NCBI GenBank assembly: GCA_019114005.1
Contig: DXGH01000071.1
Coordinates: forward strand, 60,000 to 123,999
Reading direction: 5' to 3'
Origin: Candidatus Acetatifactor stercoripullorum
Lineage (GTDB): Bacteria > Bacillota > Clostridia > Lachnospirales > Lachnospiraceae
DNA: 64,000 bases
The position numbers and the translations under genes are program-made. Shown one piece after another: positions 2,824 to 41,283 of the stretch (its first letter is position 1; every line of letters begins with the position of its first letter). The notes below the pieces were generated by a model. It was given only the letters and a program-made list of their open reading frames with translations, did not search any database and was not told where the DNA came from.

Positions 2824-2948
2824 GTGAAATCTCCTTTCAAATCTGCATCTTACAATATTATTGATAAAATAATATCATAATCCTCGTGTTCATTTTCTCA
2901 TATTTACACTGAAAAATCCAGAGCATTTTATGATTTTTTACATTTTTT

Positions 2949-3114
2949 GTAACAGCTTAGCCATAAGTTGCATGACAAGCAAATCATGCTTGCATGAAGT
3001 TGCTTGTTGCACAGCTTATGAGCGGAGCGCCCGATAATGAGCAAAGTTAGCTGCGAAGCAGCGAAAAAGCACCATGGGTGCGGCTTTGCGAATGGGCGCC
3101 TGCTAAGCTGTTAC
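2949..3114. repeat. Complex multi-stem palindromic intergenic element
   Basis: Outer stem GTAACAGCTTAG (2949-2960)/CTAAGCTGTTAC (3103-3114) enclosing several nested exact stems (see findings). Confidence 0.7.
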
Positions 3115-3123
3115 TTTTACTTT

Positions 3124-3957
3124 CTACGCCAGCATCATCCGGTCATTTGCAAATTCTCCGCCGCTGACCTCCTCAAACTTCGCCAGCAGGTCCGCCACCT
3201 GGAGCGATTTCTTCTCTTCCCCGGACACATCATATATAATTTTTCCCTCGTGCATCATCACAAGGCGGTTTCCCAGGCGGATGGCATCCTTCATATTATG
3301 GGTCACCATCAGAGCCGTCAGATGATTTTCGCCAATTATTTTTTCGGTGATTTCCAGCACAATCCTTGCGGTTTTAGGGTCCAGCGCCGCCGTATGCTCA
3401 TCCAGCATAAGAAGCCTCGGCTGCTGCAGCGTAGCCATCAAAAGGGTAAGGGCCTGTCTCTGCCCGCCGGACAACAGCCCAACCTTCGAGGTCATACGCT
3501 CCTCAAGGCCCAGCCCCAGGCTTTTCAGCTTTTCATAATAAAATTCTTTCTCACTTTTTGTAATTCCCCATTTAAGTCCTCTGGCCCGGCCCCTGCGGTA
3601 GGCTAAAGCAAGATTCTCCTGAATCTCCATGCCTGCAGCCGTGCCCTTCATAGGGTCCTGAAATACTCTGCCCAGGTACTTTGCCCTGGCATGCTCCGGC
3701 ATGCGTGAAAGGTTCACCTGGACCTTATTTTCCTCTCCATCCTTTGTAAAAAGCATGTCTTCTATAATGATTTTACCGGCATCGATAGGATAGACCCCCG
3801 CAATCATGTTAAGCACGGTAGATTTGCCTGCTCCGTTTCCACCGATCACCGTAACAAAATCGCCGTCATTTAAGGTGAGGTTAATGCCGTCTAAGGCGCG
3901 TTTTTCATTGATCGTGCCCTTGTTAAAGGTTTTATAAACATTGCTGAGCTCTAACAT
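3124..3957 (-). CDS. ABC transporter ATP-binding protein (TrpX-type system)
   Basis: Walker A GGNGAGKST, signature LSGGQRQ, Walker B LLMLDEH; stop/start TAATG overlap with permease. Confidence 0.9.
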   Translation of the reverse strand: MLELSNVYKTFNKGTINEKRALDGINLTLNDGDFVTVIGGNGAGKSTVLNMIAGVYPIDAGKIIIEDMLFTKDGEENKVQVNLSRMPEHARAKYLGRVFQDPMKGTAAGMEIQENLALAYRRGRARGLKWGITKSEKEFYYEKLKSLGLGLEERMTSKVGLLSGGQRQALTLLMATLQQPRLLMLDEHTAALDPKTARIVLEITEKIIGENHLTALMVTHNMKDAIRLGNRLVMMHEGKIIYDVSGEEKKSLQVADLLAKFEEVSGGEFANDRMMLA

Positions 3958-4874
3958 TACAGATTACCTCCATCTTCCGAGTAAGCCTTATGTACGCGCC
4001 ATTTGGACGCCGCAACAGGAATGCACAGGGCAAGCGCCACAAAAATAGCGGAAAACAGCTTCATGTCGTTTGCATCCAGACCAATGCGCAGCACCAGCGC
4101 ACGAATTACAAAGTAAACAACGCTTCCCAGTACTGCAGAAATCAGCTTGGCCCAAAAGCTTATTGCCTTTCTCATAAGCACATCTCCAATGACGATTGCC
4201 GCAAGTCCAATCACGATGGCTCCGGTTCCCATTCCGATATCGGCGTATTTCTGCTGCTGGGCCACCAGGGCGCCGGATAAGCCCACCAGCCCGTTGCTCA
4301 GTGCAAGCGCAATGATCTTGGTAATTTTTGTGTTGCAGCCCAGGGCGCGGATCATGTCCTCATTGTTGCCGGTAGCGCGCATGGCGCAGCCAAGCTCTGT
4401 TCCAAAAAACCAATACAGCAGAAGAATCAAAACCACTGCTACGGCCAGTCCCACAATCAAAGCTGCCCAGCCGTTGGAGAGTCCCGTAAGATCGCTGAAC
4501 TGGGAAATCATGGTATCCACCTTCAAAAAAGGAGTGTTGCTTTTTCCCATAACACGCAGATTGATAGACCAAAGTCCCAGCTGCGTCAAAATACCTGCAA
4601 GAATTGCAGGAATATCAAAAGCCGTATGCAGCATGCCCGTCACCAGTCCCGCAAGCGCTCCGGCAAGCAGCGCAAGCAGGGAAGCCACAAAGGGGCTGTA
4701 ACCCTTTTCCACCACAAAGAGGGCGCAGACACAGCCTCCCAGGGCAAAACTCCCGTCCACTGTCAGGTCTGCAATATCCAAAATCTTATAGGTGATATAG
4801 ACCCCAAGAACCATAACCCCCCACAAAATACCCTGGGATACCGCTCCCTGCATTTGAATCAAAAATGCACTCAT
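3957..4874 (-). CDS. ABC transporter permease (branched-chain/TrpY-like)
   Basis: Hydrophobic permease with DLTVDGSFALGG; ORF open to 4925 but ATG at 4874 (MSAFLIQMQGAVSQG) is the more likely start. Confidence 0.85.
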   Translation of the reverse strand: MSAFLIQMQGAVSQGILWGVMVLGVYITYKILDIADLTVDGSFALGGCVCALFVVEKGYSPFVASLLALLAGALAGLVTGMLHTAFDIPAILAGILTQLGLWSINLRVMGKSNTPFLKVDTMISQFSDLTGLSNGWAALIVGLAVAVVLILLLYWFFGTELGCAMRATGNNEDMIRALGCNTKITKIIALALSNGLVGLSGALVAQQQKYADIGMGTGAIVIGLAAIVIGDVLMRKAISFWAKLISAVLGSVVYFVIRALVLRIGLDANDMKLFSAIFVALALCIPVAASKWRVHKAYSEDGGNL

Positions 4875-4886
4875 AATCAACCATAC

Positions 4887-4918
4887 CTTTCCTGCTGAAA
4901 CGCTTTCCTGCTGAAACG
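4887..4918. repeat. Perfect 2 x 16-bp tandem duplication in the permease 5' region
   Basis: CTTTCCTGCTGAAACG at 4887-4902 and again at 4903-4918. Confidence 0.95.
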
Positions 4919-5011
4919 CGTCCACGCATTAATGTCTCAAAGATAATAATAAAGAATTTATATCATAAACGCAAGCTATTTTTCATATTATGACGGCAAT
5001 TTGTGACATCA

Positions 5012-5057
5012 AAAAGGGGAAGGACAGAAAAGAATCTCCTTCTGCCCTTCCCCTCTT
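5012..5057 (-). terminator. Intra-operon hairpin/terminator between substrate-binding protein and permease genes
   Basis: Minus strand GGGGAAGGGCAGAAG...CTTTTCTGTCCTTCCCCTTTTTGATG. Confidence 0.75.
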
Positions 5058-5093
5058 CATTTTATGGTACGCTTCAGACTGTATTTATTTCTT

Positions 5094-6134
5094 TTATTCA
5101 TCCAGCACGGACAAATCTACTCCAAGAGCCGCAGCCGTCTCTTCATTTACGGTAAGCTCACACTTGGAGGCGTCAAGATAGCCGATAGGCATTTCTGCAG
5201 GAGAAGCTTCTCCTTTCAAAATGGAAACTGCCATTTCTCCTGCAAGGTAGCCCAGCTGGTAATAATCGATACCATAGGTTGCAAGGCCGCCAGCCTCCAC
5301 CATGCCTGCCTCGCCGCAGATAATGGGAAGTCCGTTGTCGGTGGCAACCATAGATACGGTAGCCATACCTGCCGCTATGGTATTATCGGTAGGCGCATAA
5401 ATTACGTCCACCTTTCCTACCATAGATTCCACTACGGTCTGAATTTCGTTAGAGCTTGAAACGGTGAAGGTCTCACTGGAAAGTCCCTTTTCCTCGCAGG
5501 CTGCAATAGCCATCTCAGCCTGAATCTGAGAATTTGCCTCTGCAGAGCAGTACAAAATGCCTACTCTCTGCGCATCGGGGAAAATTCTGGTGAGCAGATC
5601 GATCTGCTCTGTCACAGGGGTCAGATCGGAGGTTCCAGTCACATTGGTTCCGGGAGCCTCATTGTCATTCACCAATCCCGCCTCGGCATAATCCGTGATG
5701 GCAGTGCCTACAATGGGAATCTCCGAAGTAGCTCCGGCTACCGCCTGTGCCGCAGGGGTGGCAATGGCGAGAATCAGATCATTCTCCTCGCTTACCAGCT
5801 TTGTGGCAATGGTCTGGCATGCGGACTGGTCATTCTGGGCGTTCTGCTGATCTACCTTGTAGATGATGCCGGAAGCGTCCAGAGCCGCAATAAAGCCTTC
5901 GTTGGAAGCATCCAGAGCCGCATGCTCTGTCAGCTGGAGCACACCTACCTTATAGGTCTGTCCGTCTGCTGTCTGCTCTGCAAAAGAAGCGCTCTCCTCT
6001 CCCGTCTGGGTCTGGACAGACGCTTCTGTCTGTTCCTGTGTTGCGCCGCTTTGGGCCGTTTCGCTGCTGGAGCAGGCTGTGAGCATAGACGCAGCCATCA
6101 CCGCAGCCAGAAAAATAGACACTTTTTTTCTCAT
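5094..6134 (-). CDS. ABC transporter substrate-binding lipoprotein (TrpX/ABC_sub_bind family)
   Basis: Lipobox MLTACSS; KVGVLQLTEHAALDASNEGF...GTSDLTPVTEQIDLLTRIFPDAQRVGILYCSAEANS. Confidence 0.9.
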   Translation of the reverse strand: MRKKVSIFLAAVMAASMLTACSSSETAQSGATQEQTEASVQTQTGEESASFAEQTADGQTYKVGVLQLTEHAALDASNEGFIAALDASGIIYKVDQQNAQNDQSACQTIATKLVSEENDLILAIATPAAQAVAGATSEIPIVGTAITDYAEAGLVNDNEAPGTNVTGTSDLTPVTEQIDLLTRIFPDAQRVGILYCSAEANSQIQAEMAIAACEEKGLSSETFTVSSSNEIQTVVESMVGKVDVIYAPTDNTIAAGMATVSMVATDNGLPIICGEAGMVEAGGLATYGIDYYQLGYLAGEMAVSILKGEASPAEMPIGYLDASKCELTVNEETAAALGVDLSVLDE

Positions 6135-41147: not shown

Positions 41148-41283
41148 GTGATTGTGAAACTCGCTCCATGGCATCAAAAACTGGGCGTAATAACCAAAAT
41201 AAGAGTGACTAGCTACTGCTTTGGAACCCGTTTTTGGTTATTACGCCCAGTTTCGTGATTTTATCAGCAAGTTTCGCAATTAC
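41148..41283. repeat. Long imperfect inverted repeat between convergent aroC and lactonase-like genes
   Basis: Inner perfect 22-bp arms AAACTGGGCGTAATAACCAAAA (41178-41199)/TTTTGGTTATTACGCCCAGTTT (41232-41253), outer 18-nt arms 41148-41165/41266-41283. Confidence 0.85.

Follow-up and report, generated by a model that had tools for sequence, protein, structure and literature searches.

A MITE-like element of Lachnospiraceae with a folded interior probably related to Clostridiales-1 RNA

The interval 2949-3114 of the window, the whole stretch of 64,000 nucleotides that was analysed, is quite probably a small non-autonomous DNA transposon of MITE-like type. It would carry a conserved module related to the Clostridiales-1 RNA, would be moved in trans, most likely by IS66, and would probably act as RNA. 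Dispersed copies, an 8-bp target duplication in the family, an empty orthologous site, covariation in arm 2 and a relation to the Rfam family RF01699 are apparent from sequence comparison. If this reading is true, a catalogued gut-bacterial RNA would have to be reinterpreted as a mobile element; this would explain its many copies per genome and direct attention to transposition and insertion polymorphism rather than to a fixed regulator.

Architecture and location of the element

The element is non-coding, about 165 bp long, and is described here on the + strand, whose fold has apparently been selected. As the first-pass annotation had placed it, it lies between a NifU-like gene (2131-2823), in whose upstream region the insertion landed, and an ABC transporter ATPase gene (3124-3957), whose end is about 10 bp from the element; both genes are on the minus strand. 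The NifU-like gene adjoins a GGGtGRT-family gene (PF14057), forming an apparent pair at 1084-2823. Positions 3124-6134 correspond to an ABC transporter operon, with a binding protein that resembles the tryptophan-type TrpX (NF041285, below cut-off).

The left terminal inverted repeat (2949-2960; family consensus GTAACAGTTCAGCC) and the right one (3103-3114; GTAACAGCTTAG in the window copy) are exact over 12 bp here and extend over about 14 bp across the family. According to the proposed mechanism, GTAACAGTTCAGCC and its inverse would have two roles, as terminal inverted repeats and as the 5' and 3' sides of the outer stem of the fold. Two arms are enclosed. Arm 1 (2962-3020) is a long hairpin with a hypervariable stem and a conserved G(CTTG)C tip. 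Arm 2 (3022-3099) contains the conserved core GAGCGCC-N5-ATGAGCAAAG ... CTTTGCGAATGGCGC around two hairpins (3050-3062 and 3069-3081), and the letters of its internal loop, ATGA/GAATGG, are nearly invariant. All 16 arm sequences previously claimed (16/16) are exact at their coordinates; the tip of arm 1 had to be re-read as TCATG-CTTG-CATGA, that is, a G(CTTG)C tetraloop. A kink-turn reading of the ATGA/GAAT loop was discarded, because the tandem G.A, although present, is separated from the bulge by two A-U pairs.

Copies, target duplications and a candidate transposase

The earlier annotation had named two outcomes that would speak against it, a lack of both a second copy and conservation in relatives, and a lack of covariance support for the stems; neither is the case. 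In the 73 contigs of the own genome (3.07 Mb), BLASTN returned 13 matches including the window copy, some of them arm 1 or arm 2 alone. By the same method, 15 of 61 genomes carry copies, all of one genus. The arm-2 covariance model (R1) had matches in 82 of 138 congeneric genomes, in 36 of 299 Lachnospiraceae genomes taken one per genus (35 of 298 besides the own genus), and in one genome outside the family among those sampled from the order. Copies are mainly intergenic, with 3 of 69 located within an ORF of at least 150 aa. Carriage by phages or plasmids was considered and rejected: the exact pattern is absent from plasmids and IMG/VR, and only weak partial relatives occur, on four uncultured phage contigs.

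Flanking direct repeats were analysed in 120 distinct copies whose two ends could both be recognised. The repeat is exactly 8 bp long, with an identity of 0.537 compared with 0.312 after shuffling (maximum 0.353) and 24 exact cases, while other lengths are at or near background. This direct repeat is fixed at 8 bp over the family, and therefore the unit transposes. The insertion target is T-rich. In the window copy the target duplication is not preserved, with 4 of 8 positions matching between the left flank CATTTTTT (2941-2948) and TTTTACTT (3115-3122); two sibling copies in the own genome keep repeats of 8/8 and 7/8. Furthermore, the orthologous site is empty in three congeners (L344, L345 and L346), where the two flanks of the window copy, once joined, align across the junction.

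The family thus combines terminal inverted repeats, a fixed-length target duplication, a short non-coding body dispersed between genes and an empty site, the features expected of a MITE, and it is very likely a mobile structured element. The "REP/MITE-type mobile palindrome" of the first-pass annotation can be kept in its MITE-like half, on the grounds of inverted repeats, 8-bp duplication, dispersed copies and empty site, and has to be given up in its REP half. A REP/REPIN element moved by RAYT, a Y1 tyrosine transposase, would also be an intergenic palindrome dispersed in many copies. However, an 8-bp target duplication is not a REP feature, the inverted ends are long, and the search for a RAYT in the host found Y1_Tnp as a 43-position fragment and no complete RAYT, making this origin extremely improbable.

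At two loci (L025, 1503-2006; L139, 6614-7008), arm 2 and the right end are together repeated head to tail, with a period of 104 bp and 3.8 to 4.8 copies, and a further locus (L008, 1500-1590; G000:C62) has the ends and arm 1 without arm 2, an apparent deletion derivative. In being small, dispersed and modular, with an RNA-like fold, the element resembles the BOX elements of Streptococcus pneumoniae (PMC3049150), and the 104-bp arrays are comparable to the several boxB modules as an internal module in variable copy number. The likeness is one of architecture, since ends and hosts differ, and membership of BOX is not claimed.

In its ends (GTAACAGTTCAG) and in the 8-bp repeat, the element agrees with IS66-family transposons of the same genus that have a single ORF, the ISBst12-like type. 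The IS66-family loci L036, L037, L038 and L041 share the GTAAC-GTTCAG end motif of the element. The ends of L036 are GTTACAGTTCAGTG/GTTACTGTTCAGAC, and those of L038 and L041 are GTAACTATTCAGCA/GTAACTATTCAGAA; these three congeneric elements have ends of the GTAAC/GTTAC-GTTCAG type and exact 8-bp repeats (CCGATTTT, ATTTTTAT and GTTTTTTT). By NCBIfam, the L037 and L038 proteins are IS66 transposases above the cut-off; the L036 protein is below the NCBIfam cut-off and above the Pfam cut-off for DDE_Tnp_IS66. GTAA ends together with 8-bp repeats are also described for IS66 in PMC11946415, and both are found in the element family.

Unlike these transposons, the element encodes no protein, with no IS66 transposase ORF within its 166 bp, and the same genome yielded no complete partner whose ends are identical. 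A search of the own genome yielded no IS66 transposase, so the link with IS66 is drawn from the ends and the repeat length; in 25 high-copy genomes, likewise, no IS66 with matching ends was detected. A single-ORF IS66 enzyme probably moves the element in trans. Such a transposase would cut at GTAAC and duplicate 8 bp of T-rich target.

Likely relation to the Clostridiales-1 RNA

The first-pass annotation had also considered a folded RNA, and this half of its proposal agrees with a relation of the interior to the Rfam RNA Clostridiales-1. A default Rfam scan gave no match at 2949-3114, whereas a permissive scan aligned positions 2951-3112 of the + strand with RF01699 over its full length (model 1-166; 31.0 bits, E 2.8e-5). 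The gathering cut-off of 48 bits is not reached by the window copy (31.0) or by its best sibling (45 bits). Further GTAACAG-type loci behaved similarly: 15 of 16 matched RF01699 at full length and in the correct orientation, scoring 23 to 45 bits (E from 9e-7 to 0.7), the exception being L220. The reverse search was weak but in place (L250, E 7e-5; L243, E 0.003).

The window copy has the full-length consensus structure and the conserved letters of RF01699. The shared + strand layout comprises the outer stem, arm 1 with a GCTTGC tip, the CCGCC junction and the UGAGCA...UGCGAAU arm, and the hosts of both are Lachnospiraceae. However, the element scores 31 against a cut-off of 48, its outer stem and ends are GTAACAG instead of TGATGCC, it does not have the third hairpin, and its duplication is 8 bp rather than 5 bp. 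The interior is therefore filed as a relative, not a member: likely a diverged branch related to Clostridiales-1. This GTAACAG branch, abundant in Acetatifactor and relatives, escapes the Rfam cut-off.

RF01699 itself has matches in 136 of the 250 Lachnospiraceae genomes searched, frequently at 10 or more places per genome. Canonical Clostridiales-1 copies (L234-L263 and L282-L308) are bounded by an 18-bp inverted repeat, TGATGTTGGGGTCAAAAG, with ends TGATGCCAGGGTCAAAAG / CTTTTGACCCCAACATCA, and have duplicated 5 bp of AT-rich target (exact in 19 of 33; identity 0.77 vs 0.53). To judge from these repeats, the canonical copies also lie on mobile units, with ends that differ from the GTAACAG type. 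A partner transposase for the canonical ends was looked for and not found. A DDE_Tnp_1 / IS1634-type partner for TGATGTTGGGG ends was not found, and the neighbouring ORFs are host genes.

The accessible part of Weinberg et al. 2010 (PMC2864571) presents Clostridiales-1 as a probable RNA that is not cis-regulatory, and mentions no mobility. The openly searchable literature, subscription papers and supplements aside, holds no description of Clostridiales-1 as mobile. What is new is that two kinds of transposon end carry the same folded core, which makes selection on the RNA directly testable. As a tentative and somewhat doubtful extension, Clostridiales-1 could be a structured RNA passenger that has been carried by two or more unrelated types of transposon end (TGATG... 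with 5 bp, GTAACAG... with 8 bp). The RNA core itself would then spread in Lachnospiraceae and recruit transposases in turn, and the RNA may help in trans with transposition or with tolerance by the host.

Apparent selection on the fold and genomic setting

As RNA, positions 2940-3125 fold at -80.4 kcal/mol, compared with a shuffled mean of -55.5 (z -5.96), and none of 200 shuffles was as good. Covariance analysis supported the pairing of arm 2, one of the stems for which the first-pass annotation had proposed this check. Among 104 distinct sequences, 98.5% of cells are paired and both sides have changed in 16 of 22 pairs, a result equalled in 0 of 500 shuffles, in an alignment that was fitted to the covariance model and so leans towards structure. 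A smaller alignment built without the model has compensatory changes in 8 of 22 pairs.

Isolated mismatches in the stem of arm 1 are biased by strand: G.T outnumbers A.C (61 vs 24) and G.A outnumbers C.T (52 vs 3), as counted in a gapped alignment (the stems have bulges) in which only Watson-Crick pairs were rewarded. After strict thinning of related copies, G.T to A.C is 20 to 13, which is not significant (p 0.30), and G.A to C.T is 25 to 0. Part of the bias may stem from one conserved motif near the tip. The bias suggests that selection acts on the + strand in a folded, single-stranded form. If the + strand is selected in its folded shape, the interior probably acts as RNA once transcribed, and RNA is favoured over single-stranded DNA as the active form.

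It has to be asked whether the fold could instead function in DNA, either single-stranded or cruciform, perhaps as a signal for a transposase or for replication. Computed as DNA, the opposite strand of 2940-3125 also folds well (z -6.59), and GNA triloops such as GCGAAGC are unusually stable in DNA. On the other hand, a symmetric cruciform would not have an excess of G.T and G.A mismatches on the + strand (single-stranded + strand DNA is unaffected by this argument), and the G(CTTG)C tip resembles CUUG, a stable RNA tetraloop. A DNA role is thus considered quite unlikely.

It could also be argued that the element is a purely selfish MITE whose interior has no RNA role, the fold being a by-product of an ancestral inverted-repeat structure. 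The hallmarks of a mobile element are fully present, and MITEs commonly fold (PMC10969869). However, the arm-2 stems covary across many genera, the ATGA/GAATGG letters are nearly invariant, the same core recurs on units whose ends differ and whose duplication is 5 bp, and the mismatches are strand-biased; this explanation therefore appears unlikely. In the preferred reading, that of a mobile element with an RNA-active interior, the folded interior would be a diverged Clostridiales-1 branch held in shape by + strand selection and probably active as RNA when transcribed.

GTAACAG-type copies tend to sit just upstream of outward promoters, more often on their left side. The flanks of 84 copies were examined over 110 bp. 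An outward sigma-70-like site is present on the left side of 30 copies, compared with 0 to 9 after shuffling, and on the right side of 12, compared with 1 to 2; the -35 box is mostly 9-40 bp from the copy. Inward promoters in the same flanks are at background level. No strong outward promoter accompanies the window copy, and no promoter link was seen for canonical Clostridiales-1 copies. In 51 of 69 cases the left-hand gene is oriented away from the element. As a guess, the RNA could serve as a compact, folded leader or tail with which the element can be carried next to promoters harmlessly; another guess is that it binds a protein that helps the element to spread.

The inward background also speaks against a stationary small RNA gene duplicated by ordinary means, in line with the Rfam entry "Gene; sRNA" for Clostridiales-1. 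Such a gene would fit the RF01699 relationship and the arm-2 covariation, but it leaves the fixed-length target duplications, the inverted terminal repeats and the empty sites unexplained. The 8-bp duplication strongly disfavours it, and this origin is very improbable.

A second long palindrome is located at 41176-41255 of the window, flanked by a chorismate-synthase-like gene and its neighbour. Its exact stem is about 22 bp (AAACTGGGCGTAATAACCAAAA), and by eye it is unrelated to the element at 2949-3114.
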